A DNA stretch of 27,985 bases from IMG/VR virus record IMGVR_UViG_3300025133_000488, positions 1-27,985 of that record, one strand, 5' to 3'. The notes under the pieces are model-generated. The model did not search any database. It saw nothing but the letters and a program-made list of their open reading frames with translations, and was not told the DNA's origin. The position numbers and the translations under genes were made by a program. The stretch comes from a virus. Positions within the stretch are counted from its first letter, which is position 1, and the number at the start of each line of letters is the position of its first letter. Of this stretch, positions 3,292 to 27,985 are shown in pieces.

Positions 3292-3428
3292 GGGAATTCC
3301 CCTGTCACAATAAATATAATTGCAATTACAATAGCAGAAAATAACAAAGTCAAAGAAAAGTACCACTCACGTTTTTCTTTTCTTTTTCGTTTTATATCAC
3401 GATTTTGTTGAAATTCACTTTTAGACAC
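3288..3428 (-). CDS. Small membrane protein, 46 residues
   Basis: A GTG start at 3428 follows GGAG with 8 nt spacing, and the stop overlaps the guaC start codon (ATGA), so this is a real coupled gene although it is short. The N-terminal half is highly basic ([14 protein letters not shown]) and is followed by a single hydrophobic helix of about 20 residues rich in Leu, Ile and Val, then a short TGEFP tail. The positive-inside rule predicts a cytoplasmic basic N-terminus. I recognise no family. It lies between tRNA-Ile and guaC. Confidence 0.7.
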
Positions 3429-3444
3429 TTTTCAATCTCCGAAG

Positions 3445-3519
3445 TAGGCTGGGTGAGATTCGAACTCACGAAAAAACATTGTTATAAGCAATGCTGCTGA
3501 TGCCATCCGCTTCCAGCCC
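3445..3519 (-). tRNA. tRNA-Ile(UAU), unusual D arm
   Basis: Minus-strand reading gives an acceptor GGGCTGG/CCAGCCT (one G-U pair), a perfect T arm GTGAG-TTCGAAT-CTCAC, and an anticodon stem CATTG/CAATG around loop CTTATAA, so the anticodon is UAU for the AUA codon. The length between acceptor and anticodon stems is a normal 19 nt and GG is present in the D loop, but the D stem pairs poorly and position 8 is A rather than U. CCA is not encoded. AUA is common in the AT-rich genes here, which fits a role in codon supplementation. Confidence 0.75.
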
Positions 3520-3524
3520 ATGTG

Positions 3525-3779
3525 TTAATTCAAAGAAACTCTCGTTTTCTTATTACTCACATGGTCGTTTTCGTTTTTGTCAAGGTAATTGGACTTTTGT
3601 CGATCTTCATCGTGACCCAATCTATAATTTAATTGTTCAATGTTATATTTCTCATTCAAGAAATTCAATTCTTTCCGATGCGAACTCAAGAACTCTTGAA
3701 TGAGAAGTTTGCTCATATTAATCGCTTTCTCTTCACCAGTTCCTAGTGGAATATCAATGTGTAATCTATACTGACTCAA
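3525..3779 (-). CDS. Conserved small phage protein, 84 residues
   Basis: The protein begins YRLHIDIPLG, contains a helix-forming central part, and has YRLGHDEDRQKSNY followed by HVSNKK near the C-terminus. I recall similar YRLGxDxDRQxxNY...GHVxxKK proteins in other large phages, all of unknown function. The ATG overlaps the stop of the gene upstream by 4 nt (3776-3779), and the stop lies 5 nt from tRNA-Ile, so it belongs to the minus-strand cluster from 5780 to 3525. No catalytic motif or membrane segment is visible. Confidence 0.75.
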   Translation of the reverse strand: MSQYRLHIDIPLGTGEEKAINMSKLLIQEFLSSHRKELNFLNEKYNIEQLNYRLGHDEDRQKSNYLDKNENDHVSNKKTRVSLN

Positions 3780-3979
3780 TTGTCCGTCTCCATGTCCTGA
3801 TCTTCTGCACCTTCAAATTCAATATTAATATCTGGTTGAAAATCAGACGCAAATTGATTTGCTCTCTTCCATATATCTTCATCCACTTCCCGCACATAAT
3901 GTAATGCCGTATAAAGAAACTTAACGCTATCTAATAGGTTGTCCAACACAAAATTATGGTCTTCGTTTGAATTCATCAT
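3776..3979 (-). CDS. Hypothetical acidic protein, about 67 residues
   Basis: AGGAG precedes two consecutive ATG codons at 3979 and 3976; I chose the first, although either fits. The open frame continues further upstream, but that part overlaps the preceding gene and lacks a ribosome site. The protein is mainly helical in appearance with an acidic C-terminus (FEGAEDQDMETD). It overlaps the previous gene by 26 nt and the next by 4 nt. No family is recognised. Confidence 0.65.
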   Translation of the reverse strand: MMNSNEDHNFVLDNLLDSVKFLYTALHYVREVDEDIWKRANQFASDFQPDINIEFEGAEDQDMETDN

Positions 3980-4154
3980 CACTCTCCTGTTCATAGTAGA
4001 TGTCCACTTGTTTCCTCAATGATAGCATAATTCTAGACAAATCCCTATGAGAAAGTTGATCAAGTAGATATTTTTCATATGCTAAAATCAAAATATCAAT
4101 TTCATCCACAAGTTCTTTTGTGAATTCTTTTAATTTATCGTTTGAATTAGTAAT
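3954..4154 (-). CDS. Hypothetical helical protein with a probable ATT start, 66 residues
   Basis: The coding part (KLKEFTKELVDEIDILILAY and onwards to DDEFKRRP) is a charged, amphipathic helical protein. The open frame extends upstream to 4280, but that stretch lies inside the preceding gene in another frame and looks like its shadow. AAGGAG, located over the end of the preceding gene, stands 10 nt before an in-frame ATT at 4154, with no ATG, GTG or TTG in the right place. ATT is therefore the best start; a GTG about 20 codons later would remove conserved-looking sequence and has no ribosome site. Function unknown. Confidence 0.5.
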   Translation of the reverse strand: MTNSNDKLKEFTKELVDEIDILILAYEKYLLDQLSHRDLSRIMLSLRKQVDIYYEQESDDEFKRRP

Positions 4155-4749
4155 TTTTAGGAGACTCCTTAGTGTATTCCTTCTTAGATTTCTGTTCAAT
4201 GGTTTCTGTAGAAACTTTAATAAATCTTGCATAAGGAATAACCATAAGGTCTTCCAATAAAGGCATATTTTCCATATCAATACTATAAACTTCAGAGCGC
4301 AATCCTTCCCTCAATTTATAAGTCTTAAAACAGGGTTTGAGATATTGACCCATCTCTTTCCATGCCATTTTAAGAATCGCTCTTTTGAGAGTAGGAGATG
4401 GACCGGTTGCTTTACTTTGTTCTGATTTAAATCTAGCATTTGTTTCCGACATCATCCCAAACATTCTTTTCATTAAATACATTCGTTTTCTTGGAGTTAA
4501 ATAATGAAAATTATGACCGGTCAAAACGCCAGTGACAGGATTGAAGTCTTGAAACATCACCAAAGGATATTCGTCATATGATGGAACAACTTGTGCATCA
4601 TAGTTGAATGTCATAAAAGTACTAAATAATCGCCATGGGTCTGCTTGCGTGAAGTCACGCATAATTCGACCACCATTACGAACAATCTGATCCTTAACCT
4701 GATTAAAATTGGTAGTGGTTGGATCTAGAATATTCAGTTTTGGTGCCAT
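4147..4749 (-). CDS. Conserved T4-like phage protein, 200 residues, function unknown
   Basis: Start MAPKLNILDPT at 4749 is preceded by AGGAAA with about 8 nt spacing; the longer open frame runs into the upstream gene and is rejected. The middle has FNYDAQVVPSYDEYPLVMF, then GHNFHYLTPRKRMYLMKRM. This resembles a family I remember from T4-like marine phages with YDxFPLV and GLNxHYLPPKxR, some members of which have been annotated as DNA end protector-like or structural proteins. I cannot confirm that role. The protein ends in a charged tail rich in Lys and Glu. It overlaps the next gene by 8 nt. Confidence 0.65.
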   Translation of the reverse strand: MAPKLNILDPTTTNFNQVKDQIVRNGGRIMRDFTQADPWRLFSTFMTFNYDAQVVPSYDEYPLVMFQDFNPVTGVLTGHNFHYLTPRKRMYLMKRMFGMMSETNARFKSEQSKATGPSPTLKRAILKMAWKEMGQYLKPCFKTYKLREGLRSEVYSIDMENMPLLEDLMVIPYARFIKVSTETIEQKSKKEYTKESPKNY

Positions 4750-4759
4750 GAAGCGTTTC

Positions 4760-5401
4760 CTATCTATTTGCCCCCACCGGACCATCAGTAGGTGGTTGTT
4801 GATGATTTTTTCCACAACTTGCGCATGGTTTAGCAAATGGTCTTAAATCTGCATTTGAATCGTGATTCATTGCATATCCATTATTGGGATTAATTTTTTC
4901 AGAAACCAGACGTTCGCCTTGTTTATTTTCAATCAAACTTCGTCTATGAATTTCTGTTAGTCCGTTTTCTTGTTCTAATCGGAATTTTGCAGTAGGAACA
5001 TGCTCCAACCAGTAATCTTCAATTTTCTTCTGTTCGTCGCCGTTAACAATGAAGTAACGAGCAATATAAGTCTTTCTTGCCATAATATAGTCTTCATGAA
5101 GTTTCATTTTAGCAGGGCAGTTTTTATGAGTTTCTGATGCTTTACCCAATTCCGCAGGACCGCATGTAACAACAACTGTAACAGCAAAACCAGGTTTAGG
5201 TGGATACGTTCCCTTCTTTTGATTTTCTTCAACATGACCCTTCATTTGCAAACGTGCCAAATGTTCTTTTTGCTCATCCGGAAGACCACGAAATTGTTCC
5301 ATTGGAATTTTCACTTCTCGTCCTTGTTCATCCATAAAAACAAAAGGTGGCTCTACTTGTGGTCGTTTCACTTCTCTCGGTTTAAAATTCATTTTACTCA
5401 T
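4760..5401 (-). CDS. Hypothetical phage protein with Cys motifs, 213 residues
   Basis: The start MSKMNFKPREVKRP is set by GGAGAT 8 nt upstream; the longer open frame is not supported. There is a short beta-type segment FVFMDEQGREVKIP, a hydrophobic strand AVTVVVTCGPAE, a cysteine in HKNCPAK, and a C-terminal CASCGKNH. The cysteines and histidines could bind zinc, but their spacing does not match a family I can name. It lies 10 nt upstream of the next gene. A near-late box (TATAAATG) and an AT-rich leader lie just before it at about 5402-5445. Confidence 0.65.
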   Translation of the reverse strand: MSKMNFKPREVKRPQVEPPFVFMDEQGREVKIPMEQFRGLPDEQKEHLARLQMKGHVEENQKKGTYPPKPGFAVTVVVTCGPAELGKASETHKNCPAKMKLHEDYIMARKTYIARYFIVNGDEQKKIEDYWLEHVPTAKFRLEQENGLTEIHRRSLIENKQGERLVSEKINPNNGYAMNHDSNADLRPFAKPCASCGKNHQQPPTDGPVGANR

Positions 5402-5445
5402 AGTAATATCTCCTTCATTATATAATGAGTTTACACATTTATATA

Positions 5446-5607
5446 TCAGTCCCAATCGCCTTTTCTGAGACTCGACTTAGTTTTATACCTATCTTTTTCC
5501 TTTTTCGGGGAATCACTCCACGTTTTCGCTCTAGGATGCTCATACCCATCCTCTCCGATCCTTCGCACCCACCGCTGCCCTCTACGCGATTTTCTAGCGT
5601 TTTTCAT
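5446..5607 (-). CDS. Small basic protein, 53 residues
   Basis: The ATG at 5607 overlaps the stop of the membrane protein upstream (ATGA), which supports translation. The protein is very rich in Lys and Arg (KNARKSRRGQRWVRRIGEDG at the start, later KKEKDRYKTK) and contains three tryptophans. Nucleic-acid binding is a reasonable guess, but no family is recognised. Its stop is 44 nt from the next gene. Confidence 0.6.
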   Translation of the reverse strand: MKNARKSRRGQRWVRRIGEDGYEHPRAKTWSDSPKKEKDRYKTKSSLRKGDWD

Positions 5608-5780
5608 CCAAACAACCCCCCAGCAAGATGGATTCCCAGACCAATCAAAAACCCAAACATAATCAAACCTGCCGCAACACCAAAAAATTTACCAATACGA
5701 AACATACTTTCGTTTCCAGTCGTTTCGTTAGCATCCGCACTTAAATCTAATGTTTTGAATTTATACTTTACGTTTTTCAT
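5604..5780 (-). CDS. Small membrane protein, 58 residues
   Basis: The N-terminal half is polar (MKNVKYKFKTLDLSADANE), followed by one long hydrophobic segment with repeated glycines (GVAAGLIMFGFLIGLGIHL) and a short AGGLFG end. One transmembrane helix is predicted. The start lies 7 nt after a TATAAATA late box with no convincing ribosome site, so the message may be leaderless when made from that box. It is coupled to the basic 53-residue gene downstream. A holin-like role would be speculation. Confidence 0.65.
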   Translation of the reverse strand: MKNVKYKFKTLDLSADANETTGNESMFRIGKFFGVAAGLIMFGFLIGLGIHLAGGLFG

Positions 5781-5787
5781 AATACCC

Positions 5788-5795
5788 TATTTATA
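5788..5795 (-). promoter_or_regulatory. T4-type late promoter box TATAAATA
   Basis: An exact TATAAATA on the minus strand lies in the 20 nt between tRNA-Glu and the 58-residue membrane gene. In T4 this 8-mer alone defines late promoters read by the gp55/gp33/gp45-modified polymerase. The ATG follows 7 nt downstream, close to where transcription should start. Confidence 0.6.
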
Positions 5796-5800
5796 AAAAA

Positions 5801-5872
5801 TGACCCCAAGGAGAATCGAACTCCTGTTCCCAGGATGAAAACCTGATGTCCTAGCCGCTAGACGATGGGGCC
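5801..5872 (-). tRNA. tRNA-Glu(UUC)
   Basis: Minus strand: acceptor GGCCCCA/TGGGGTC with discriminator A, T arm GGAG-TTCGATT-CTCC inside, and anticodon arm CAGG-TTTTCAT-CCTG giving anticodon UUC. The conserved GG and TAG features of the D arm are present. CCA is not encoded. It is 6 nt from the basic 44-residue gene. Confidence 0.92.
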
Positions 5873-5878
5873 AAATTA

Positions 5879-6013
5879 TTATCGCACTCGTTTCCCATTG
5901 CCTCTTCGTGATGTGCGTGGGGGTGCATTGCCTTTTCTTTTCTTAGAGTGTCGCGGTGAACCAATTTTAATCCTGTTAGACACTGTAGAATCGTATGATG
6001 AGTTTTTTGCCAT
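5879..6013 (-). CDS. Small basic protein, 44 residues
   Basis: The ATG at 6013 is preceded by AGGAGAT and by a good promoter at 6040-6067. The sequence starts MAKNSSYDSTVSNRIK and the remainder is rich in Arg, Lys, Pro and Gly (SPRHSKKRKGN and later TSRRGNGKRVR). A nucleic-acid-binding peptide is likely from charge alone; no family is recognised. It is cotranscribed with tRNA-Glu. Confidence 0.65.
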   Translation of the reverse strand: MAKNSSYDSTVSNRIKIGSPRHSKKRKGNAPPRTSRRGNGKRVR

Positions 6014-6039
6014 TTGTTATCTCCTGTTGTTAATAATAA

Positions 6040-6067
6040 ATTATAATACAGATATACACAAAGTCAA
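6040..6067 (-). promoter_or_regulatory. Sigma70-type promoter for the 44-residue gene and tRNA-Glu
   Basis: Minus strand TTGACT (6067-6062) and TATAAT (6045-6040) with a 16-nt spacer. The -35 box overlaps the last codons of the lysozyme gene. The ATG of the downstream gene is about 27 nt from the -10 box with AGGAGAT in between, a normal leader. Confidence 0.7.
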
Positions 6068-6522
6068 TGAAAAAACCCACCTTTCGAGACTGCACATTCC
6101 GATCCGATCTTCATGACACGTTTCACTTTAAGCCAATATTTGATCGTGTTTTCTTTTCGAAACCCGTTTGGACCTCCATTCCAAATTCTTGCACGATTCT
6201 CGTCTGTGACGGAGCCTCCGACCCTCTCAGGGGTAGCATAGCGTTCCATGTACTTACGAAAAACAATAACAGCATAGTCCAAGTCCACACAATCCATCCA
6301 CTCACCTTCAACACCACTATCCACCCATGCAGCATGAGAGATTTGCAGTGGACCGAGTGATGTGTGATTGTCACCCCAAATCTCACCGACTCTGCTGTTC
6401 GTCTCCACTTCCCATATTGCACTTTCCAGCGGTGTCAATTCCACAGAGAAGTTGTTGCTCAAACATATTGAATAAACCACCATCGATGTCATCAGTGCAA
6501 TTATCTTCGTCAATGTGTGCAT
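6064..6522 (-). CDS. Secreted lysozyme-like (SLT/i-type-like) muramidase
   Basis: The 152-residue protein has an export signal (MHTLTKIIALMTSMVVYSIC; hydrophobic core about residues 6-19) and a lysozyme-like core: SAIWEVETNS with probable catalytic Glu near 38-40, GDNHTSLGPLQISHAAWVD at about 50-68, then WMDCVDLDYA and a C-terminal WNGGPNGF...TIKYW pattern seen in phage transglycosylase-like lysozymes. It should cleave peptidoglycan at lysis; the signal suggests Sec-dependent export, as in SAR or secreted endolysins. The start at 6522 has a weak AGGA site. The first 140 nt overlap the 3' end of the preceding gene in another frame, which is unusual; a later GTG start would lose the signal peptide. 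Confidence 0.75.
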   Translation of the reverse strand: MHTLTKIIALMTSMVVYSICLSNNFSVELTPLESAIWEVETNSRVGEIWGDNHTSLGPLQISHAAWVDSGVEGEWMDCVDLDYAVIVFRKYMERYATPERVGGSVTDENRARIWNGGPNGFRKENTIKYWLKVKRVMKIGSECAVSKGGFFH

Positions 6523-6766
6523 TAGTTCGTAATCCTGTGAGTCGGTCAATTGTGATAATATCTGTGATTGGAATGTGCATCCACACTTCATCACGGACGT
6601 TCCATAAATGTATAACTTTTTCTGTAGAATTATTCTCATCATCTACATTTGGCAAGTGATTTTTTGACAACGTGGCAGCGATATTGTGTTCTACTGAATA
6701 TGAGTCAGTATAAATCACTTCGCATATGCCTGCTGTGAGTTCGTTCATTACTTCGTTTTGGTCCAT
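6383..6766 (-). CDS. Hypothetical acidic protein, 127 residues
   Basis: The start MDQNEVMNELT at 6766 follows AGGAA with 7 nt spacing; the longer open frame runs through tRNA-Asp and is rejected. The protein has a mixed alpha/beta look, with VIHLWNVRDEVWMHIPITDI in the centre and an acidic loop (DEDNCTDDIDGG) towards the end. No family is recognised. Its last 46 codons overlap the signal-peptide region of the lysozyme gene in another frame. The downstream partner suggests involvement in the late or lysis programme, but this is only context. Confidence 0.6.
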   Translation of the reverse strand: MDQNEVMNELTAGICEVIYTDSYSVEHNIAATLSKNHLPNVDDENNSTEKVIHLWNVRDEVWMHIPITDIITIDRLTGLRTNAHIDEDNCTDDIDGGLFNMFEQQLLCGIDTAGKCNMGSGDEQQSR

Positions 6767-8163: not shown

Positions 8164-9375
8164 TCAGAAGGGGCATTTGTTGTCGTCAGTGACTGCGGCA
8201 GTCTCTGCATTCTCATCCGTTCCTGCACGAAGATCAGCATCGATCTTCTCGTATAGACTCAGGAACGATTCCCGCGTCTCATCGTCAAACCGAGCAAGAC
8301 ACAAATTGATCGCTTTCTCACGCTCTCCGAAGATCGCGTATGCGTTCACGATGTCCACCAGACGGCGAGTAGAGATGATCTCATCCACTGCACCAGCATA
8401 GAATCCTTTGCGAACCGAATCAGACCAGGAGGTCAGATGATCGGCAAATTCAGCATCGCCCAGTCCCGCCTTGGTGAGAATCTTCTTCTCAGTGGACTTC
8501 GTTGGATAGGGTTGTTCAAACGTCACGGGGAAACGATCAAGCATCGCCTCATTCATAACACCAGTACCGACGAATCGTCCATCATCTGAACCCTTGCCTT
8601 TGGTATTAGCCGTGGCGAAGACGGTGAACCCGGCGGCGGGAGTGACCCACTGACCGATCTTCTTGAGGAATACACCCTTACCCTCAAGAACGGGTTGCAT
8701 GCACATCAGGTTGGCGGATCCGAGGTCAATCTCGTCCAGAAGCAGCACGCCACCATTCTTCATAGCGGAAACTACAGGACCATCCACCCATACGGTATTG
8801 CCGTTGATGAGGCGGAATCCACCCAGCAGATCGTCTTCGTCTGTCTGGCGCGTGATGTTCACGCGATAACATTCTCGCTTCAGTTTCGCACAAACCTGCT
8901 CCACCATGAGGGTCTTGCCGTTACCAGAAAGACCAGTCACGAAGATCGGGTAGAACTGCTTGGAGCGGACGATCTTCTCAACGTCAGAGAAGTGTCCCCA
9001 GGCGACATATCCGTCAAAGGCGGATGGGACGAGGGTAGCACGTTCGCCACCAGTCATACCCATCGTGAATGCTGCATTGGCAGCAGGAACGGACTCTACC
9101 GCACCCTGCGGTGCCACTGCGGGCACGGTGGCGCAAGCATTGGGCGCAGGGGCGGGAGTCTCGTCCTTCGGGGAAGCGGAGGCTATCTCAGGAATGTCGT
9201 AAAGACCCCGACCCGCTTTGCGGGTTGAGTCTTGCGTAATCCATGAAGGCGGGCATGTATAAATGCCCGTTGATTCACAAGCGGCGACTAGATCGGCGCG
9301 CGTGACTGGTGAAGTGCAACCCGCTGCCGCTAGGGCGTTCACGAATTGTTGAGGTCGTTGTTTGAGTTTCATCAT
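8164..9375 (-). CDS. MoxR/CobS-like AAA+ ATPase
   Basis: The 403-residue protein has an N-terminal winged-helix-like part (residues 5-60), an Ala/Pro-rich linker (65-105), then the AAA+ core with Walker A GLSGNGKT at 148-155, Walker B LLLDEID at 211-217 and a sensor-type TANTKGKG segment. This is the MoxR/CobS clade. CobS is the ATPase of aerobic cobaltochelatase and the name is often used for T4-like phage homologues, but no cobalamin genes are visible here. With the divergent VWA/HExxH protein it more likely forms a MoxR-VWA complex that remodels or processes protein targets. GGAGAC precedes two consecutive ATGs; transcription probably starts from the extended -10 at 9423. Confidence 0.85.
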   Translation of the reverse strand: MMKLKQRPQQFVNALAAAGCTSPVTRADLVAACESTGIYTCPPSWITQDSTRKAGRGLYDIPEIASASPKDETPAPAPNACATVPAVAPQGAVESVPAANAAFTMGMTGGERATLVPSAFDGYVAWGHFSDVEKIVRSKQFYPIFVTGLSGNGKTLMVEQVCAKLKRECYRVNITRQTDEDDLLGGFRLINGNTVWVDGPVVSAMKNGGVLLLDEIDLGSANLMCMQPVLEGKGVFLKKIGQWVTPAAGFTVFATANTKGKGSDDGRFVGTGVMNEAMLDRFPVTFEQPYPTKSTEKKILTKAGLGDAEFADHLTSWSDSVRKGFYAGAVDEIISTRRLVDIVNAYAIFGEREKAINLCLARFDDETRESFLSLYEKIDADLRAGTDENAETAAVTDDNKCPF

Positions 9376-9395
9376 GTCTCCGAAGGAAGGTCCGT

Positions 9396-9416
9396 GTCGC
9401 GGTTCCGTCCCGCGAC
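9396..9416 (-). promoter_or_regulatory. Leader hairpin of the AAA+ ATPase transcript
   Basis: GTCGCGG (9396-9402) and CCGCGAC (9410-9416) form a perfect 7-bp GC-rich stem with a 7-nt loop, placed between the -10 box and the GGAG ribosome site. It begins about 7 nt after the -10 box and would lie at the very 5' end of the mRNA, where it could stabilise the message. Confidence 0.6.
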
Positions 9417-9422
9417 CTGTGT

Positions 9423-9431
9423 ATTATAACA
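9423..9431 (-). promoter_or_regulatory. Extended -10 promoter (TGnTATAAT) for the AAA+ ATPase operon
   Basis: Minus strand TGTTATAAT followed by ACAC. No good -35 box lies 16-18 nt upstream, so recognition would depend on the extended -10. The same TGnTATAATACAC word occurs at the divergent VWA gene (9789-9797 onward). Confidence 0.6.
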
Positions 9432-9788
9432 GAAATTTGCCCTCATGTGGGGGTTAGGATAGACAAAATCCAGAAAATAAGGGTCAAATGACGTAAATAC
9501 CTGCAAATACAGCACTTGTGGAAGAAAATATAGTTTGTTCGGGTCTTGTTCGGTGCTTGTGTGCGTATAAAGACAGGAACGCGCACATGCACGCGCGAAT
9601 ACCATAATTATAACTCTGTGTCAATGGGTGAATGTTATAAAAATGGAAAAAAGAGTGAAATTAATGAAAAACACGGAGCAATTAACGATAAATCTATCCA
9701 TGTTTCGTGATTATCCTAGTGTCCGATAACAAAATCTTCGTTATTTTCCCATTTTGTCCATCCCAACCCCCATTTTAGGGTGAATTTG
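9432..9788. other. Divergent intergenic region between ATPase and VWA genes
   Basis: About 360 nt without a supported gene. One minus-strand open frame here has no ribosome site and poor composition. The region is moderately AT-rich and carries no clear repeats or hairpins besides the two extended -10 promoters at its edges. An operator for joint control could lie here, but none is visible. Confidence 0.4.
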
Positions 9789-9797
9789 TGGTATAAT
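9789..9797 (+). promoter_or_regulatory. Extended -10 promoter (TGnTATAAT) for the VWA gene, probably leaderless
   Basis: TGGTATAATACAC ends only a few bases before ATG 9805; 7 nt separate the -10 box from the ATG, so the mRNA should start at or within a few bases of it. No Shine-Dalgarno sequence is present. No good -35 box is visible. Confidence 0.65.
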
Positions 9798-9804
9798 ACA
9801 CGCG

Positions 9805-12033
9805 ATGAAACAGGGAACCCCTAACGTACGAACCGCCGCCAAGGACATCCTTGCGCGCCTCCTCGCGTCCGAAGACCTCACGGTCCAGCATGACGCATCT
9901 GCTGAGACAGCGTACTTTGACACTCAGAACCGTATTCTGTGCCTGCCCGTATGGGAAGACATGGATTCACACATGTATGACATGCTCGTCGGGCATGAAG
10001 TGTCCCACGCGCTGCATACGCCCGCCGATGGTTGGCAAGGATTCGTCGGTGACGATGCTAATTCACAATTGCGTCATATGTGCCTGAACGTCTGCGAAGA
10101 TGTCCGCATTGAACGCAAAATAAAAGATAAGTTTCCCGGACTCCGCCGTGACTTTGCCAAAGCATACAAGTCGCTGCATGAGCGGGATATCTTTGAAATG
10201 AAGGGTAAGTCAGTGTCTGACCTGCCTTTGATTGACCGCATCAACCTGTACTACAAGGGTGAGATCTACGGACAGATGAATATCCCATTCACCGCTGAAG
10301 AGCGGGAGTGGTTGACTCGTCTGGATGCTGCAAATTCCTTTGAGGATATCATGGAAGTCGCATCTGACCTCTTTGACGCAACCAAAGAAGAGCAAGAGCA
10401 GCAACAGCAGCAACAGCAAGTCCAATTGGACGAAAACGGCGAAGAATCAGCGCAAGGTGTCGGTGAAGGTGAGGGCGGTTCTGACTCTGAGAAGGGTGAG
10501 ACCTCCGAATCCGCATCTGGTGCTGGTGCTGGCGACGAACAAGGCGACAATGAGCAGGGCGAAGACTCTGGACAATCCGCTGATGACGATACCGACGATG
10601 GCGAGTCTGCTGATTCCCAACAAGGTGAGCAGTCCAGCGAATCTGGCGATGACCTGTCCTACGATTCCTATAATAATGACCCCTCACCTGGTTCCACTCA
10701 ACGGAACTACGAGAAGGCTCAAGATTCAATGCGGGATGATAATGCGAAGGAACATTGTTACTTCAACGTCCCACATGCCAACCTTGACAACATTATCATC
10801 TCCCCTACGCAAATTGCAGCAGTATGGGATGAATTTCTCAGTTCTACGCGGGGAGATCGGGACCAGTACGCTCGGTACGTCCAGTCCTGTCGGGAATTCA
10901 AGTCCAACTCCAAAGCAATTGTGAATCATATGGTTCAGCAATTCCAGCAGAAGCAAGCAGCGGACGCATCCAAGCGTTCCCATGTTGCGAAGACTGGCGT
11001 TCTTGATACCACTACGATGATCAACTATCGTTGGAGCGAAGACATCTTCCTCAAGAATGAAGTCCACTCAGACGGCAAGAATCACGGCATCGTCCTGTTC
11101 CTTGATTGGTCTGGTTCAATGAGTGGAATCCTCAAGGATACCATTGAGCAGTTGCTGATTCTTGTGGAATTCTGCCGCAAAGCAGGAATCCCCTACGAAG
11201 TATATGCATTCACTAGTTGCATGTTTAATGATGACTTCAATCACTACTGCCACAGCGAAGAAGCACTGAAAAAGCGTGAAGCATATTACGCCAATCAATT
11301 CGCCACTGACGATAATACATTGAGTCCTCACGGATTCCAATTGCTCAATTTCCTCAGTAGCAAGCAGAATGCAAAGCAGCATATTACTGCTGTTAACAAC
11401 CTCTACAATTGTGGTTGCAATAACTACCGCGTTCCACCAGTCCTACATCTCGGTTCCACTCCCCTGAATGAAGCAATCGTCGCTGGTTTGGAGATCGTCC
11501 CGCAGTTCCAAAGTGAGAACGCGATTCAGATCGTAAATACCATATTCCTCACCGATGGCGATGGACATAACATCCTCGGTAACGGATACTACAATTCCTC
11601 AAATAAGTTTATCCAAGATCCTGTGACCCGTAAGACCTATGCGGTTCGTAATAGTGATACCAACGCACTCATTCAATTGCTCAAGGACCGGACTGGTGCT
11701 AGTGCGATCAGCATCCGCTTGCACGATTCCAACAATATCAAATCCCTGCGATATCGCTACTTCTCTGGTAGTGATTGGGATACTGAGAATGCACAATTTG
11801 AGAAAGCGTGCAAAGCATACAAGACTGGACATCACTTCGTTCATGAGACTGGTGCATGGGATCTGAATCTGGTAGTCAAGGGCAACCTCAAGGTTGAAAC
11901 AGATCCGTTTGAGAATCTTCCCGGAGACGCGAGCAACACTCGGATTCGTAATGCATTCATCAAGGGTGGCAATCGTAAGAAGTCCAGTCGGGTGATCTCT
12001 AATCGGATCGTGGATGTGATTGCGGTAGGTTGA
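9805..12033 (+). CDS. CobT-like VWA-domain protein with HExxH metal site
   Basis: This 742-residue protein combines three parts. The N-terminal part carries HEVSH at residues 64-68 and a later NVCEDVRIERK helix, the layout of a zinc metallopeptidase site. Residues about 190-310 are low-complexity and rich in Gln, Glu, Asp and Ser. The C-terminal part is a von Willebrand A domain with a MIDAS DWSGS at 434-438 and FLTDGDG near 577. CobT of cobaltochelatase has a similar acidic linker and VWA domain, and T4-like phage relatives are named CobT or peptidase. Facing the AAA+ gene, it is the likely partner subunit. The HExxH suggests proteolysis rather than metal chelation, which is inference. It has no ribosome site. 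Confidence 0.8.
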   Translation: MKQGTPNVRTAAKDILARLLASEDLTVQHDASAETAYFDTQNRILCLPVWEDMDSHMYDMLVGHEVSHALHTPADGWQGFVGDDANSQLRHMCLNVCEDVRIERKIKDKFPGLRRDFAKAYKSLHERDIFEMKGKSVSDLPLIDRINLYYKGEIYGQMNIPFTAEEREWLTRLDAANSFEDIMEVASDLFDATKEEQEQQQQQQQVQLDENGEESAQGVGEGEGGSDSEKGETSESASGAGAGDEQGDNEQGEDSGQSADDDTDDGESADSQQGEQSSESGDDLSYDSYNNDPSPGSTQRNYEKAQDSMRDDNAKEHCYFNVPHANLDNIIISPTQIAAVWDEFLSSTRGDRDQYARYVQSCREFKSNSKAIVNHMVQQFQQKQAADASKRSHVAKTGVLDTTTMINYRWSEDIFLKNEVHSDGKNHGIVLFLDWSGSMSGILKDTIEQLLILVEFCRKAGIPYEVYAFTSCMFNDDFNHYCHSEEALKKREAYYANQFATDDNTLSPHGFQLLNFLSSKQNAKQHITAVNNLYNCGCNNYRVPPVLHLGSTPLNEAIVAGLEIVPQFQSENAIQIVNTIFLTDGDGHNILGNGYYNSSNKFIQDPVTRKTYAVRNSDTNALIQLLKDRTGASAISIRLHDSNNIKSLRYRYFSGSDWDTENAQFEKACKAYKTGHHFVHETGAWDLNLVVKGNLKVETDPFENLPGDASNTRIRNAFIKGGNRKKSSRVISNRIVDVIAVG

Positions 12034-13953: not shown

Positions 13954-14235
13954 TTGCCGAAACGTAAAGAATATCCCATCGTTGAAGTGATATGGATTGA
14001 CGCTGAAGAACACGGCGATGTGGGGTGGAATGATCTGAAAACACAACTAGCACATGCAAAGAAACCATGTCCCGAAATGTACACGGTTGGTTATTGTGTT
14101 TACAGAGACGATGAGCATATCAGTATATTGAGTACAATTGGCTATAAAGAATCTAGTACTCTAGAGAAGATACCATTGGGTTTTGTTGTAAGTGTGAAAG
14201 AACTGCAATCAAAGATTGAACCACCTACTCCATAA
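13954..14235 (+). CDS. Conserved small phage protein, 93 residues
   Basis: Translation probably starts at TTG 13954, which follows GGAG with 6 nt spacing; no ATG fits before the conserved VEVIWIDAEEHGDVGW. Further motifs are CPEMYTVGYCVY, ISILSTIGY and a final IPLGFVVSVKEL. I recognise the pattern (VExxWxDA...VGYxV...IxxIPxGxVxxIxxL) from many phages and some bacteria, with unknown function. The last 27 nt overlap the 3' end of the convergent HNH gene. Confidence 0.75.
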   Translation: MPKRKEYPIVEVIWIDAEEHGDVGWNDLKTQLAHAKKPCPEMYTVGYCVYRDDEHISILSTIGYKESSTLEKIPLGFVVSVKELQSKIEPPTP

Positions 14236-14724
14236 TTCTTTACCAGAAGTATCCAGACCTACCATTTGAAGAGCAAGTCTCTTTGGTTTGGTAGGTTTGT
14301 TTTTTAGTTCCATGTCACATTCCTTGAGAAGTTTGTGTCCCTTCTTACAATTGCAGGTTGGACATGCAGTGACAAGATTTGTCCATTGTGTTCCACCACC
14401 CTTTGATTGTGGATAAACGTGATCTATTGTGAGTTTCTTGGGATTCTTTGACACGAACCCACAATACTGACATGTCCAGTTGTCTCGTTTGAAGATGTTT
14501 CTTCTTGTGGGCGAGTGGTCCTCGTAAGGTAAATACACAAAACGAACAAGGACGATTGCAGCGGGTATCTTGTACTCACCGCGAACCGTCCTAATGGAAT
14601 AAGTTTTATTGTAGTTATATGGTTTCGTTGCTTTCCCTGCGGAGAGCAACTTAACAGCCTTCTTCCAGTCTATGACTTTTAGGATTTCTTCGCTGGAATT
14701 GAGTAGAAGTACGTCTCTGCTCAT
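14209..14724 (-). CDS. HNH endonuclease with zinc ribbon
   Basis: The 171-residue protein has an N-terminal domain common to HNH proteins (MSRDVLLLNSSEEIL...W..A), then C85-x2-C88, the catalytic LTIDHVYPQ with D101-H102, N116 in WTNLVTACPTCN, C121-x2-C124 and H130. These give an HNH metal site and a structural zinc knuckle. It cuts DNA, as a free-standing homing nuclease or in genome processing; no intron or intein is visible nearby. The ribosome site is weak (GAGAA). It is the last gene of the minus unit 15771-14209. Confidence 0.88.
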   Translation of the reverse strand: MSRDVLLLNSSEEILKVIDWKKAVKLLSAGKATKPYNYNKTYSIRTVRGEYKIPAAIVLVRFVYLPYEDHSPTRRNIFKRDNWTCQYCGFVSKNPKKLTIDHVYPQSKGGGTQWTNLVTACPTCNCKKGHKLLKECDMELKNKPTKPKRLALQMVGLDTSGKELWSRWFNL

Positions 14725-17432: not shown

Positions 17433-18113
17433 ATGGAAAAACAAAAGCAATTTACGCATAGAGAAAAAGAATGGAATTTGGAAGAGATGTCGGCAACGAC
17501 TAATACCGGAATCCGCTTATACAATTCCCCAATCGGCAATCTTCCAAGTGTCACGACTGTAACCGGATGGAAGAAGAAGGATTTCTTTGCTGAGTGGAGA
17601 AAAAACAATCCAAAAGAATCCAAGAGAGTGTGTGACCGAGGAAATGTAATTCACGACACTATAGAGCATTATCTCAACAATGAAAATGTTGATGTGGAAT
17701 CTATACCGAAACTTGAGGCGGAAATGTTTACGAACGCTCTTTCTGAACTGAACAGAATAGACAACATATATGAATTGGAAACGTCTCTGTGGTCTGAACT
17801 TCTTGGTCTTGCTGGTCGTGTTGATTGTATCGCTGAGTTTGATGGTAAACTATCCGTGATAGACTTCAAGGGAAGTACCAAAAAGAAATCAAAGAAATAC
17901 ATTAGTAACTATTTTCTTCAAGCGACTGCATATGCTATTATGTTTCAAGAAAGAACCGGTATTGAAATTGACAATATTGTGATTCTTGTAACATGCGAGG
18001 GTGGTCCGGTTCAGGTTTTTGAAGAAGAACCCAAACGATATATAAAATTGTTACACCACACAATAAAAGAGTACCGCAATGAAAATGAAATGCCTCAGCA
18101 CCTTCCTGTCTGA
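17433..18113 (+). CDS. PD-(D/E)XK exonuclease, RecB/MGME1-like
   Basis: The 226-residue protein has the RecB-type nuclease layout: H74 in DRGNVIHDTIE, E117 in ELETSLW, LAGRVDCIAEFDGKL with D131, then VIDFKGS with D144 and K146, and the helix YFLQATAYAIMF with Q163. The first part (LPSVTTVTGWKKK) is typical of MGME1-like phage exonucleases. It should digest single-stranded or duplex DNA ends using two metal ions, in recombination or replication. The start at 17433 follows AAGGTG; the open frame begins earlier but overlaps the promoter. Its last 29 nt overlap the ligase-like gene. Confidence 0.88.
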   Translation: MEKQKQFTHREKEWNLEEMSATTNTGIRLYNSPIGNLPSVTTVTGWKKKDFFAEWRKNNPKESKRVCDRGNVIHDTIEHYLNNENVDVESIPKLEAEMFTNALSELNRIDNIYELETSLWSELLGLAGRVDCIAEFDGKLSVIDFKGSTKKKSKKYISNYFLQATAYAIMFQERTGIEIDNIVILVTCEGGPVQVFEEEPKRYIKLLHHTIKEYRNENEMPQHLPV

Positions 18114-19272
18114 ATCTAAAAATACACACCTAGAACATATTGAAGATTCTATCTTCATGAGTTCAGATGAAGTGAAAGATTCTATTCGTTTCCTGACTTC
18201 ATTGCGAAACATGCTCGGGGGACATTCATCAAAAGGTATTGGTCTTACCGTCAAGTGGGATGGCGCACCCGCAATCATTTGTGGGAAGGATCCAGAAAAT
18301 GGTAAGTTTTTTGTTGGAACAAAAAGTGTATTTAACAAAACTCCCAAAATCAATTACACCAATGCAGACATTAACAAAAATCATAGTGGTGGATTAGCAG
18401 ATAAACTTAAAATTGCACTAAAGCATTTATCTAAATTAGAAATCACCGGCGTTCTTCAAGGTGATTTAATGTTCACTGAGGGCGATTTCGTCTCAAAAGA
18501 AATTGATGGTGAACAATTCATCACTTTCACCCCAAATACAATTACATATGCTGTGTCAGAAAATAGTTTATTGAGCAGCAAACTTAAGCGAGCAAAGATG
18601 GGGATTGTATTCCACACAGAATATAAAGGCAGAACCATTCAAACAATGAGAGCATCCTTCGGTCCCAAACTACGACTTAAGAAAAGCAATGATGTTTGGT
18701 ATGATGATTCGTCGTTTAAGGACTTTTCTGGAGTCAATTTATCTTCATCGGATATAAATAAATTTGATGCATCGTTAACAAATGCAACATCTCTCATCAA
18801 ACGTGTGGGTCGCTTCTTGGATTCCATTGAACCTAATGTCCAGTCTCTTCTTAAAATATACATCAATTCCAAAGTGCGAGTAGGCACGCTAGAGGTTTCA
18901 CATAATGATTTTGTGAAATATGTCAATGGTGTGTATGAGGGAAAGATTGATAAGTTGGGAAGTGATGCAGGAAAGTCTCGAAAGAAGAAAGAATTAGATT
19001 CTATCGTCTCAACGTTGAATTCACAATCTTCGAAATATGACGATATGTTTGATTTATTTGGGGAACTTTTAGTGTTAAAAAACATTATTGTTAGTCAACT
19101 CAATAAAATCAAGGGCAAAATGAAAACTTTCGTAAAGACAGACTCTGGATATAAAATCACTGCCCCTGAAGGATTTGTAAGTATTGACCAAAAATCCGAC
19201 AAAGCATTTAAGTTGGTTGACAGACTTGAATTTTCAAAAAACAACTTTACCGTTGCAAAAAATTGGGATTAA
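18085..19272 (+). CDS. Ligase-fold nucleotidyltransferase-like protein (DUF6267-like) with capsid-targeting leader
   Basis: The start MKCLSTFLSE is a ten-residue leader with F7, L8 and E10 like T4 MKTYQEFIAE; ATG 18079 is the alternative. Then THLEHIEDSIF and LRNMLGGHSSKG lead to VKWDGAPAIICG, in which K57-W-D-G60 matches the nucleotide-binding KxDG motif of ATP-dependent DNA/RNA ligases. LQGDLMF at 124-130 and GIVFHTEYKG near 173 sit where motifs III and IV fall, though Glu of these motifs is replaced. I know this family from T4-like marine phages (DUF6267); activity is unproven. Fold assignment fairly good, ligase activity uncertain. 395 residues. Confidence 0.75.
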   Translation: MKCLSTFLSESKNTHLEHIEDSIFMSSDEVKDSIRFLTSLRNMLGGHSSKGIGLTVKWDGAPAIICGKDPENGKFFVGTKSVFNKTPKINYTNADINKNHSGGLADKLKIALKHLSKLEITGVLQGDLMFTEGDFVSKEIDGEQFITFTPNTITYAVSENSLLSSKLKRAKMGIVFHTEYKGRTIQTMRASFGPKLRLKKSNDVWYDDSSFKDFSGVNLSSSDINKFDASLTNATSLIKRVGRFLDSIEPNVQSLLKIYINSKVRVGTLEVSHNDFVKYVNGVYEGKIDKLGSDAGKSRKKKELDSIVSTLNSQSSKYDDMFDLFGELLVLKNIIVSQLNKIKGKMKTFVKTDSGYKITAPEGFVSIDQKSDKAFKLVDRLEFSKNNFTVAKNWD

Positions 19273-23279: not shown

Positions 23280-23759
23280 ATGAGAAAATTCAAAGAACTA
23301 AGAGACTTTCTTAAAGAAAGTGAATATACACCAACTACTGACACTTGGCAATCGGCATATAGTGACTATGGTGTATATCGGATTGAGAATGAAGAGCAAT
23401 TGAATAAAATCAACGCATTCATTCACACTTTCACCGAAAGATCATTCATTGAACCTAGACATGCTATGTCCCAACTCAGACAAAAGTTGAATCTTGCTGG
23501 GTTGGATTTTGAAATGCCGAGCAACAACTCCATCAAAGAAGGTACGACTTCCTATAAAATCAATCGGTTCGGTGGTGAGTTTGGTACTACACCAACACAC
23601 AACCTCATGAAGAATGGTTTTTACAAAGGTGATGGTATATCTCACAATAACAATGGTGTCGGTATGTCTCTACAATGCACTTATGACGTTAATGAGTCTG
23701 GTCTTTATAAAATAAAGGCAATGATTGTTCCTGATAATAAACCTAACAATGAAGAATAA
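23280..23759 (+). CDS. Conserved phage protein with capsid-targeting-like leader, 159 residues
   Basis: The start MRKFKELRDFLKE ends in LKE followed by S, a probable prohead-protease site, and AAAGGAG precedes the ATG. The body has YGVYRIENEEQLNKINAFIH and PRHAMSQLRQKLNLAGLDFE, a pattern I remember from T4-like phages (YRxxNxEQLxRINxF...RxKLNxxGLxF) without known function, then a Gly/Asn-rich C-terminal part with NLMKNGFYKGDGI. It would be an internal virion protein if the leader functions. It starts the gene string 23280-26027. Confidence 0.65.
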   Translation: MRKFKELRDFLKESEYTPTTDTWQSAYSDYGVYRIENEEQLNKINAFIHTFTERSFIEPRHAMSQLRQKLNLAGLDFEMPSNNSIKEGTTSYKINRFGGEFGTTPTHNLMKNGFYKGDGISHNNNGVGMSLQCTYDVNESGLYKIKAMIVPDNKPNNEE

Positions 23760-24729: not shown

Positions 24730-24874
24730 TAAAAACAGAAACAACCCTCCGGTGAGACAGAGGGTGATTAAAAAAACAATAAACTCCAACGTCAGACCAA
24801 AAAAGAAAGTCCCACCCCAACAAATAACTAGCAACACGAACTACAAGAACCCAACACCGAGGAAGAGAAAATGA
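24713..24874 (+). CDS. Small basic Cys-motif protein, 53 residues
   Basis: The frame overlaps the previous gene by 17 nt and the next start by 4 nt (ATGA), as in a tightly coupled operon, and an AGG lies 9 nt before the ATG. It begins MGCGCNKNRNN and is then rich in Lys, Arg, Pro, Asn and Gln, ending RKRK. Small MGCGC-type basic proteins occur in other T4-like phages as I recall. Function unknown; the two cysteines could bind metal or form a disulfide. Confidence 0.6.
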   Translation: MGCGCNKNRNNPPVRQRVIKKTINSNVRPKKKVPPQQITSNTNYKNPTPRKRK

Positions 24875-25356
24875 AAACATTTGGTCAACTAATAAATGAA
24901 ATAACAAACGTTGCTAACCCTGCTGCAATTACTGGATTGGGTAATGAGCCTCCAGTACATCCAGAAAAGAAAAAGGACAAGTTTGCTGGATGCAGTGTGT
25001 TTGATGTTACTCCCAACGAGTATGCCAAGTGTATGCGTGGTCGCATGAAGTTTGAACGTTGGGGGAATAAATTGAACATGGAAGACGCACACAATTCTGA
25101 AATTCGTTCTTATTCTCACAAGAATCCGGGTTCACCTGTTATTGTACGAAATCAAATGACTGGTGAAATGTCATATCTTATTCCAAAAAGAGTAGACGAA
25201 AATTCTCCCAATCCAGAAAATATTAGCAAACGATTAGATGACCTTCGTGCAAAAAACACAAGAATCGATGATGCAAAAAGAAAAGAAAAAATAGGATTCG
25301 TGACCATAGTTGGTCAGGGTACTAGCACGGTAGCAAAACGACCCCAAGATGTGTGA
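24871..25356 (+). CDS. Conserved phage protein with capsid-targeting leader, 161 residues
   Basis: The start MKTFGQLINE matches the T4 leader at M1, K2, T3, I8 and E10, with INE as the predicted cleavage point. The body has CSVFDVTPNEYAKCMRGRMK, ERWGNKLNMED and HKNPGSPVIVRNQMTGEMSYL, a pattern I know from other T4-like phages, without function; the tail is basic and helical. It starts with ATGA coupling to the 53-residue gene and GAGGAAGAG upstream. The mature protein would be about 151 residues and packaged. Confidence 0.7.
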   Translation: MKTFGQLINEITNVANPAAITGLGNEPPVHPEKKKDKFAGCSVFDVTPNEYAKCMRGRMKFERWGNKLNMEDAHNSEIRSYSHKNPGSPVIVRNQMTGEMSYLIPKRVDENSPNPENISKRLDDLRAKNTRIDDAKRKEKIGFVTIVGQGTSTVAKRPQDV

Positions 25357-25361
25357 ATGAA

Positions 25362-26027
25362 ATGAAACTCTTCCTCTTTACATTATGTCTATTACTACCA
25401 GCATGTGAATCGGCACCAGACATTGTAGTTCGTGGTGATACATCACAAAGACTTGAGTATATTGCAGAGGATGTTCGTCAAATACCGGAACCTGACGAAC
25501 TCCCCATAATTGCAGATCAAATAGATGTTGCGGCAGATGAAGTAGAAGTGCTGGAAGTAGAAAACTCACAATTCAGAGATGCAGAACGCAAGGAAGCAGT
25601 CCAAAGTTTATACTGGATTGCAAGTGTAACCGCAGGTGCGGGTTTACTATTGTGTATTGGTGGTATCGCTGTTGCTATATTCATCAACCCAAAACTTGGT
25701 GCATTATTATTCCTGATGGGTGCGGTGACTGGTGGACTTGGAACCTATGCAACCCTCTACATGGAACATGTTGGTATATTTGGTGGTGTGTTTGCTGGTC
25801 TGGGCGTTCTTACTGGAATTGGTATAGTTGTGTATCAATTCAGAAAGGATCGTAAGGCGTTGGAGGAGGTCGTGTATAGCGTTGAGACAGCAAAAAATGG
25901 TGGAGAGGTGATAGACCATGGGGAATTCAAAAAGACATCAAATATGATACAATCTAGGTCCACTCAGAGAGAAGTTGCTTCTATCAGAAAAGACTTCAAG
26001 AAGTGGAGCGGAGATGATATTCACTAA
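25362..26027 (+). CDS. Lipoprotein with three transmembrane helices, 221 residues
   Basis: The N-terminus MKLFLFTLCLLLPAC is a lipoprotein signal peptide with C15 as the acylated residue. An acidic, helical periplasmic part follows (about 16-85), then three hydrophobic segments (WIASVTAGAGLLLCIGGIAV, then GALLFLMGAVTGGLGTYATL, then IFGGVFAGLGVLTGIGIVVY) and a basic cytoplasmic tail. This resembles holin or spanin-associated layouts, or a superinfection-exclusion protein, but I cannot assign it. A GTG nine bases upstream (25353) is an alternative start. The last 4 nt overlap the convergent RuvC-like gene. Confidence 0.65.
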   Translation: MKLFLFTLCLLLPACESAPDIVVRGDTSQRLEYIAEDVRQIPEPDELPIIADQIDVAADEVEVLEVENSQFRDAERKEAVQSLYWIASVTAGAGLLLCIGGIAVAIFINPKLGALLFLMGAVTGGLGTYATLYMEHVGIFGGVFAGLGVLTGIGIVVYQFRKDRKALEEVVYSVETAKNGGEVIDHGEFKKTSNMIQSRSTQREVASIRKDFKKWSGDDIH

Positions 26028-26581
26028 CTTGTAGTGTCTGGGTATAATTCGTTGTGCAAATATTTACAGATGTAGAATGAATCTACTATATCGTTGATGG
26101 GACTTACCACCGAAGCAGCACCCATTTTTTCTTTGAGATGTATTCCCGTCTCTCTAATAAAACTTTCATACATTCGTTCTTTATTAGAGTTGCCCTTACC
26201 CGATGCAAATTTCTTAATTGTGGTTGGGGGGATTATCTCAACTGGTATGCTATTTTCCCACAATTTATATTTCAACACACCTGTGTTTTCTGCAATATGA
26301 AAAACTCTACCCGTGCTGCTATATGCATATCCTTCCAGTGCAACTTGGTCTGCCCCTAGCACAACAGAACATGCCCAATCAGATATTGTACTATATCTTT
26401 CACATTCAGTATTATATTCCGAGAAAGTTTTCCCGTGTATATTTTTATCTACTGACTTAGCATATTTCTTTGTATCTGTGAGATAATAAAAATTACAATT
26501 ACCATATGTAAAAATTGAACCACCATTGAACACACATATCGCTGGTCCGGTAAGGCTGTAATCTATTCCTGCAATAATCAT
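26024..26581 (-). CDS. RuvC-like Holliday-junction resolvase / RNase H-fold nuclease
   Basis: The 185-residue protein has GIDYSLTGPAI with D7 in the first strand, ALEGYAYSSTG with E83, KKFASGKGNSNKERM, and PINDIVDSFY with D164 and D167, the four acidic residues of RuvC-type RNase H-fold nucleases. Such enzymes resolve branched DNA during phage recombination and packaging; T4 uses gp49, so a RuvC-like enzyme may replace it. The start at 26581 is chosen because the family begins MIIAGID; upstream codons in the open frame lack support. It converges with the lipoprotein gene. Confidence 0.88.
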   Translation of the reverse strand: MIIAGIDYSLTGPAICVFNGGSIFTYGNCNFYYLTDTKKYAKSVDKNIHGKTFSEYNTECERYSTISDWACSVVLGADQVALEGYAYSSTGRVFHIAENTGVLKYKLWENSIPVEIIPPTTIKKFASGKGNSNKERMYESFIRETGIHLKEKMGAASVVSPINDIVDSFYICKYLHNELYPDTTS

Positions 26582-26657: not shown

Positions 26658-26765
26658 TTACAACCCCCTTGCAATTAAAGTTCCTATCATGAATCCAATC
26701 AACGAAACAATCATTCCTTCAGGTGTCGCTAGTAACATCAATCGCGTTTTCCAAAACTCCTTCAT
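26658..26765 (-). CDS. Putative 35-residue membrane peptide
   Basis: The frame starts MKEFWKTRLMLLATPEGMIV and continues through a hydrophobic glycine-containing segment to a basic end (IARGL). One membrane helix is predicted. GAGGAG lies 13 nt before the ATG, rather far, and the first 47 nt overlap the end of the protease gene in another frame. Small membrane peptides are frequent in such genomes; expression is uncertain. Confidence 0.45.
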   Translation of the reverse strand: MKEFWKTRLMLLATPEGMIVSLIGFMIGTLIARGL

Positions 26766-27510
26766 GTTTATTTATACTCTCCTCTATCCAATGTTTAAAC
26801 ATACTAACTCTTGTTGCAGAACATTCTACTATTTCTCCATCCAACATCATATAATTAGAGATGATTCCAATGAGCAATCTCTGTCCACGCCAATCCGTAA
26901 ATACTGCTCCACCTGAATCGCCGTGCCATATTGTTGCTTTCCTTGGAAGAAATTTAATCTCACCAATATCTTCTAGTACGATACCATAGTACTTAAAGGT
27001 TCCGGGTTTGCTATATTTTTTGAAAGAAAAAGAAAAACCAACCGTGGTTATGTCTACAAACCTACAGATGAACTGACCGTCGTGTAGGGTTGCTGGTTCA
27101 ACTCCATACACATCATGTTCTAAAAACAGAAGTCCAATGTCATGGGGAACACGCATAAACAGATCATAGTTGGGGTGGATCAGTGTCTCTGATATGCATA
27201 TTATCTGATTCCCGAAGGAAACGTGAGATAATTCTATATCGTCTATACAGTGTCCAGCCGTTAGCACTACATTAGGTGCGATGAGGACACCGCTACCAAT
27301 GACATTCCCCATGACACCAGACAATGAACACACTGTTGGGTATGGATCAAAATCATACCAATGTACAGTTTCAAAACCATCCAGAAAATCTGTTTTGGTT
27401 TCTTCTGCTTTTGTTTCTTGTATTTTTTGTTGCGGAACTGGTGTCTGAGTTATACACCCTACTAACCATAATGTAGTTGCTAAGAAATATGCACTTTTTG
27501 AACTAAGCAT
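26719..27510 (-). CDS. Trypsin-like serine protease lipoprotein
   Basis: The 263-residue protein has a signal peptide with lipobox LVGC (C19), a Gln/Glu/Thr-rich linker to residue 45, and a chymotrypsin-fold domain with the full triad: H87 in LTAGHC, D124 in HDIGLL and S199 in HGDSGGA. It should be lipid-anchored in the periplasm or outer membrane and cleave proteins there. Trypsin-type enzymes are common in bacteria such as Vibrio but unusual in phage genomes. The late box at 27520 suggests expression late in infection. Role in receptor removal or envelope weakening is inference. No propeptide is obvious. Confidence 0.88.
   Translation of the reverse strand: MLSSKSAYFLATTLWLVGCITQTPVPQQKIQETKAEETKTDFLDGFETVHWYDFDPYPTVCSLSGVMGNVIGSGVLIAPNVVLTAGHCIDDIELSHVSFGNQIICISETLIHPNYDLFMRVPHDIGLLFLEHDVYGVEPATLHDGQFICRFVDITTVGFSFSFKKYSKPGTFKYYGIVLEDIGEIKFLPRKATIWHGDSGGAVFTDWRGQRLLIGIISNYMMLDGEIVECSATRVSMFKHWIEESINKHEGVLENAIDVTSDT
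26769..26776 (-). promoter_or_regulatory. TATAAATA late-promoter-like box inside the protease gene
   Basis: Exact TATAAATA on the minus strand, 3 nt before the ATG of the 35-residue peptide and within the 3' end of the protease gene. Transcription would begin inside the peptide gene, so it more likely serves the RuvC-like gene, if it is used at all. Confidence 0.4.
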
Positions 27511-27519
27511 TCCATAAGT

Positions 27520-27527
27520 TATTTATA
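27520..27527 (-). promoter_or_regulatory. T4-type late promoter box TATAAATA for the protease gene
   Basis: Exact late box on the minus strand, located between the porin terminator and ATG 27510, 9 nt before the ATG. The predicted transcript has almost no leader and no clear Shine-Dalgarno sequence. Confidence 0.6.
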
Positions 27528-27559: not shown

Positions 27560-27595
27560 AAAAAAAAACAACCTTACGGAAAATCCGTAAGGTTG
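27560..27595 (-). terminator. Strong rho-independent terminator of the porin gene
   Basis: CAACCTTACGG (27569-27579) and CCGTAAGGTTG (27585-27595) form a perfect 11-bp stem with a 5-nt loop. On the minus strand it is followed by eight T (27568-27561) and lies 25 nt after the stop codon. It separates porin transcription from the protease gene. Confidence 0.92.
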
Positions 27596-27620: not shown

Positions 27621-27985
27621 TCAGAACTGAATTTGAAGTTGGGTGCGAAGGAGATACTCTCCACTAGCAGTGGTTGTATTCCAACCAGTATCACCCAAGT
27701 TCCAGCCTGCATCAATAGAATTGAGTGCATAACCAAGATCGGTTGTCCACTTGATATTCTTATTGACGTAGTAGTTCACACCGAAGGTAGCGACACTGAG
27801 GTCTTCAGTGCTACCATCAAGTGAACCACGTTCATACTGGACAAATGGTTCCCACTTATCCATTGTGTATGCAGCATTCCAAACCGTGCCCCAATTGTCA
27901 CCGACATCACCGCTTGTTGCAGTGTATGAACCAGTGAGTTTGAGTGCATTCCAATTGATGACAGCATCGGCAGTCCAAGTGTTGT
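27621..27985 (-). CDS. Outer-membrane porin, C-terminal part (5' end outside window)
   Basis: The visible 120 residues are a run of amphipathic beta strands with turns: DAVINWNALKLTGSYTA, WGTVWNAAYTMDKWEPFVQY, VATFGVNYYVNKNIKWTTDL, GYALNSI and a last strand LLRTQLQIQF ending in Phe, the signal read by the BAM complex. The style (large, OprP/OprO-like porin) indicates a trimeric porin for small anions, but the specific type cannot be given from the fragment. It ends with a strong terminator. A porin gene within a phage genome is unusual; it could remodel host nutrient uptake or replace a receptor. Confidence 0.8.
   Translation of the reverse strand, partial: NTWTADAVINWNALKLTGSYTATSGDVGDNWGTVWNAAYTMDKWEPFVQYERGSLDGSTEDLSVATFGVNYYVNKNIKWTTDLGYALNSIDAGWNLGDTGWNTTTASGEYLLRTQLQIQF

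Follow-up and report, generated by a model that had tools for sequence, protein, structure and literature searches.

What would a T4-like phage do with a lipid-anchored serine protease? The window analysed here (the whole viral record, 27,985 bases) comes from a T4-like phage of water bacteria and contains a gene that an earlier note had read as a trypsin-like protease anchored as a lipoprotein. The coordinates given there are exact, and the strand, which was left unstated, is minus. The gene and its functional residues are located as follows:

26719–27510, minus strand: coding sequence of an S1-family protease lipoprotein, 263 aa (ORF list, Pfam, AlphaFold2, homologue alignment)
27454–27510, minus strand: lipoprotein signal peptide, codons 1–19, with lipobox L-V-G-C19 (Cys aligned in homologues)
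27250–27252, minus strand: codon of catalytic His87 (ORF translation and homologue alignment)
27139–27141, minus strand: codon of catalytic Asp124 (ORF translation and homologue alignment)
26914–26916, minus strand: codon of the nucleophile Ser199, within GDSGG (ORF translation and homologue alignment)

The protease and its relation to family S1

The protein scores 43.8 bits against Pfam Trypsin (PF00089; cutoff 20.6), and residues 69–224 match PHROG 9683 ('protease') with E 1.7e-4, a weak profile match from which membership of the same family is not demonstrable. Conservation was counted over 82 distinct homologues, where the catalytic triad is complete in all 82 and the lipobox Cys is aligned in 81, the sole exception being a contig cut at the N-terminal side; conservation at this level goes well past what chance would give. 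The residues of the triad and of GDSGG, as well as the LVGC at positions 16–19, are exactly those named in the earlier note. The sequence supports an exported lipoprotein with a predicted lipid anchor at Cys19, and we infer enzymatic activity and a location in the inner leaflet of the outer membrane. The +2 position after the lipobox Cys is Asp in none of the 66 parsed homologues, the outer-membrane sorting rule for this position having been worked out in enterobacteria rather than in the presumed host phylum.

An AlphaFold2 model built with 28 sequences (pLDDT 82) adopts the S1 double β-barrel chymotrypsin fold (Foldseek E 1e-12), with VIA as the top structural match (Z 26.7, 201 residues, rmsd 1.9). 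Residues 18–39 are modelled with low confidence, as expected for a flexible linker following the lipid anchor. At residue 193, the equivalent of position 189, the 82 homologues have Ser (32), Thr (25) or His (25) but never Asp, and the equivalent of position 216 is a bulky Phe, Met, Leu or Tyr, both numberings being taken from the sequence alignment rather than from inspected coordinates. Trypsin specificity is therefore not supported, and an enzyme of the Arg/Lys type is ruled out by residue 189; of the earlier designation 'trypsin-like', the chymotrypsin fold stands, whereas the specificity determinant Asp189 is missing. Rather, the combination of Ser, Thr or His at 189 with a bulky 216 suggests a preference for small or hydrophobic P1 residues.

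The protease resembles peptidase family S1 (chymotrypsin/elastase) in its fold, the His-Asp-Ser order, GDSGG and a C-terminal helix with a Trp. It differs, however, in lacking the IVGG (Ile16-Val17-Gly-Gly) activation N-terminus, where the aligned region reads TDFLDGFETV and retains as its sole conserved feature an aromatic at residue 46. Counterparts of the C42–C58 and C191–C220 disulphides are also absent from the sequence alignment, and the bulky 216 residue, the lipid anchor and a phage-only motif, KKxS...F...G, set the protein further apart. This motif corresponds to the block K164-K165-S167-F172-G176 ahead of the nucleophile, which is family-specific and invariant, or nearly so, among the 82 homologues. 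Judged by predicted fold and catalytic residues, the protease is thus a member of family S1, yet one in a lipoprotein branch that is specific to phages and marked by a motif of its own. An HtrA-type chaperone protease is ruled out by the TIGR02037 score (HtrA/DegP; 12 bits against a cutoff of 416, E 0.07) and by the lack of any PDZ match in the protein, and a small non-enzymatic lipoprotein of the Llp/Cor type is ruled out by the length of 263 residues and the S1 domain.

A fixed slot upstream of RuvC

The surroundings of the gene contain the following features:

26024–26578, minus strand: RuvC-like Holliday junction resolvase, conserved downstream neighbour (phrog_159, E 4e-31)
25353–26027, plus strand: lipoprotein-like ORF in convergent orientation, predicted to contain membrane segments, a possible envelope or lysis protein (from sequence)
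27520–27527, minus strand: T4-type late promoter box TATAAATA, exact, 9 nt before the ATG, conserved across the family
27560–27595, minus strand: intrinsic terminator separating porin from protease, with a 9-T run after its hairpin (from sequence)
27621–27983, minus strand: 3' part of a porin gene, 120 aa, cut by the contig end; complete relatives have 382–386 aa (relatives' sequences and model)

In nearly all pooled loci the protease gene lies directly upstream of the RuvC gene on the same strand, usually less than 400 bases away, and the usual order runs from ribonucleotide reductase through an optional porin or other short ORFs to the protease, RuvC and a set of convergent genes. More than 100 viral contigs share this arrangement, which rules out that bacterial sequence was misassembled onto a phage contig. 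Planctomycete genomes do contain secreted S1 proteases, as a junction of that kind would require, and Planctomycetota is the probable host phylum of the sub-lineage to which the window belongs; the best of these matches, however, reaches merely E 2.6e-22, and those inspected lack both the phage motif and a matching lipobox region. They share the S1 domain but are encoded in frames of about 340–480 aa with extra C-terminal parts, some with PEP-CTERM-like ends. We consider an assembly artefact to be vanishingly improbable; the gene is, as the earlier note had held, a phage gene, and its phage homologues in conserved synteny clear the refutation test set there.

The slot is not always occupied. 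Where the protease is missing, RuvC often follows straight after ribonucleotide reductase, and many such loci keep the same RuvC gene; the Pelagibacter phage Mosig, which among cultured relatives provides the best RuvC match, has RuvC behind its ribonucleotide reductase genes and no protease. The protease gene is therefore accessory, although its slot is fixed, and lysis in the phage group at large does not depend on it.

Relatives of the protease are encoded in at least 317 IMG/VR stretches found by a family-alignment search, 80 of which were retained. The first close relatives came from three further lineages with 74–84% identity, and a search by the neighbouring RuvC-like gene gave 80 loci, 31 of which have a divergent copy of the protease gene upstream of RuvC. 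Among 50,697 records of cultured phages, six divergent protease queries gave no tblastn match. The protease is common in uncultured phages and absent from cultured ones at the tblastn sensitivity used, so that the description of such enzymes as uncommon in virulent phages holds for cultured phages only. No description of the family was found in the literature searched; its presence in hundreds of T4-like metagenome contigs and in no searched cultured phage implies a common infection step that has apparently gone unstudied.

Between close lineages the dN/dS of the protease is 0.14–0.30, and by this measure the gene is under purifying selection. In comparable pairs its dS (0.43–1.04) is far below the value of roughly 2 or higher for the neighbouring RuvC (saturated values being rough), for example 0.43 against 2.36 between the window and locus L004; the contrast indicates exchange of the protease gene among these phages.

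A late promoter and a neighbouring porin

The late promoter box claimed in the earlier note is an exact copy of TATAAATA and recurs at a constant spacing throughout the family. We examined 64 distinct protease upstream regions for the box within 35 nt of the start, finding an exact copy in 23 (1.2 expected) and a copy with at most one mismatch in 48 (11.8 expected), and the box mostly starts at −16 or −17. Of 218 such boxes in the fetched viral loci, 160 have an ORF start within 45 nt, compared with roughly 10–21% for unrelated AT-rich octamers. The three largest protease-bearing genomes (118–146 kb) each encode a late sigma factor of the gp55 type, which was not found in a 62-kb fragment; the window is itself a 28-kb fragment. 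The in-frame TGA of gp55 in two records leaves long open frames there unbroken. Since the box lies downstream of the terminator that separates the porin, the protease has a transcription unit of its own. Late transcription of the protease is well supported by these sequence signals, and argues against an exclusion factor needed from the start of infection. Over all TATAAATA boxes in loci L002–L200, the commonest distance from box to ATG is 5 nt (21 cases), and boxes before RuvC genes peak at −13; with the start-site spacing of T4, such short distances would give leaderless late mRNAs.

Complete relatives of the truncated porin occur at L007 8160–9305, L004 1633–2790 and L099 7653–8822, and the model of one relative is a 16-strand barrel with an N-terminal helical segment that matches general porins. 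A scan of genome contigs with three porins gave no matches, and a wider-alignment search of genome contigs found cellular relatives solely in Planctomycetota and unnamed bins; in cultured phages the porin was absent by tblastn with one porin query. Since the planctomycete porins are the only cellular relatives found, the porin-bearing sub-lineage of the window probably infects Planctomycetota, an assignment that applies to this sub-lineage and not to those without a porin. The porin thereby points to a phylum with poorly known phages: no relevant paper on planctomycete phages was found in the open literature, and the literature yielded nothing on a phage-encoded porin that blocks superinfection.

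The porin gene has a strong ribosome-binding site of its own and no late box, so that porin and protease are probably expressed at different times. In the majority of protease loci no porin was detected within the fetched flank, which rules out the porin as an obligatory partner, and one 126-kb genome has both genes far apart. These observations bear on the idea that the protease processes, or controls the quality of, envelope proteins made by the phage, the porin or the convergent lipoprotein for example. Adjacent genes do encode secreted proteins, but the lack of a detected porin in most loci, its separate expression signals, the missing PDZ domain and an HtrA match that is not real make this role improbable. 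Between porin and protease, L007 has an HNH endonuclease gene (9368–9958, minus strand), with a relative at 14209–14724 (minus strand) of the window, that likely reflects a homing event; at the same place L004 encodes a 1095-aa ORF (2851–6138) composed of short stretches with a recurring ESVELDEA motif between them, which may represent a polyprotein with recurrent cleavage sites.

Possible roles at the end of infection

We tentatively favour, at chances just short of even, a late, outer-membrane-tethered and periplasm-facing protease that cuts host envelope proteins and chiefly helps lysis and virion release. The phage would make the enzyme late in infection and export it; the lipid on Cys19 would anchor it to the outer membrane, with the periplasm-facing orientation as default topology, and membrane-proximal substrates would come within range of the protease domain through a flexible linker of some 25 residues. 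By cleaving proteins of the host's outer membrane or periplasm as infection ends, the enzyme may then weaken the envelope, such that lysis and virion release are completed. In addition, spanin-layout lipoproteins with membrane segments are encoded nearby in many loci, which speaks for envelope breakdown. To our knowledge, the phage envelope lipoproteins described to date (spanins, Llp, Cor) bind or fuse; a lipoprotein that cuts would represent a new route by which a virulent phage remodels the cell envelope.

The convergent lipoprotein with membrane segments lies downstream of RuvC in many loci, though not universally, and its layout resembles that of unimolecular spanins (PMC6139136), making it a candidate only; Pfam and PHROG scans of the neighbouring membrane genes returned no lysis annotation and only PHROG 38283, a group with no assigned function. 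The protease is itself comparable to o-spanins and u-spanins (Rz1, T1 gp11), which are likewise outer-membrane phage lipoproteins with a role in the last stage of infection (PMC6139136), but these are not enzymes, and the protease has no membrane segment past the lipobox. About 13% of the genomes analysed in that study lack a recognisable spanin (PMC6139136), which leads us to expect further factors capable of breaching the envelope.

Alternatively, the protease could clip the phage receptor, a porin or another outer-membrane protein, late in infection, so that progeny avoid dying cells and debris and late co-infection is blocked. A good precedent is T5 Llp acting on FhuA, and Llp and Cor are, like the protease, phage lipoproteins of the outer membrane that act from the periplasm to exclude superinfection (PMC9586334); they are, however, small and non-enzymatic, and bind the receptor instead of cutting it. 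The porin-bearing sub-lineage encodes its own outer-membrane porin beside the protease, and a protease dS far below that of RuvC would be expected of a gene swapped among phages competing for the same surfaces, although ordinary recombination also explains the contrast. The late promoter would give no early protection, and an enzyme facing the periplasm touches periplasmic loops, not surface loops, unless it is flipped outwards. We regard receptor clearance as the main rival, though less likely, and lean towards envelope breakdown because both timing and default topology fit it better. A variant specific to phages of Planctomycetota, in which a phage-made porin is inserted and the tethered protease later strips the host porins, would leave the cell surface permeable and blind to related phages, but appears a long shot.

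Metabolic genes are frequent in phages that infect aquatic bacteria. Nitrogen-cycle genes provide an example (PMC8115048), and on this model the protease might be an auxiliary gene of the nutrient type, digesting periplasmic or external protein to supply late synthesis. Against this stand the late timing, the membrane tether and the finding that no peptide transport genes were recognised beside the protease, and we give the proposal very little credence.

Returning to envelope breakdown, we note that a Destabilase-type lysozyme (PF05497) with an N-terminal hydrophobic segment, a candidate signal-anchor endolysin, is encoded at 6064–6642 (minus strand) of the window; it lies about 20 kb from the protease, which leaves the window without a compact lysis cassette. 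Elsewhere in the window are an IMP dehydrogenase/GMP reductase-like phage gene (2257–3366, minus strand) as well as a MoxR-type ATPase (PHROG 249, 'porphyrin biosynthesis') close to a large 'peptidase' of PHROG 459 (8164–9375, minus strand, and 9805–12033, plus strand). N-termini resembling MKxFKxL..E occur at 1637–2260 (minus strand), 18079–19272, 23280–23759 and 24871–25356 (all plus strand), as well as at 2073–2839 of L091, and are reminiscent of the capsid-targeting sequence of the internal head proteins of T4.
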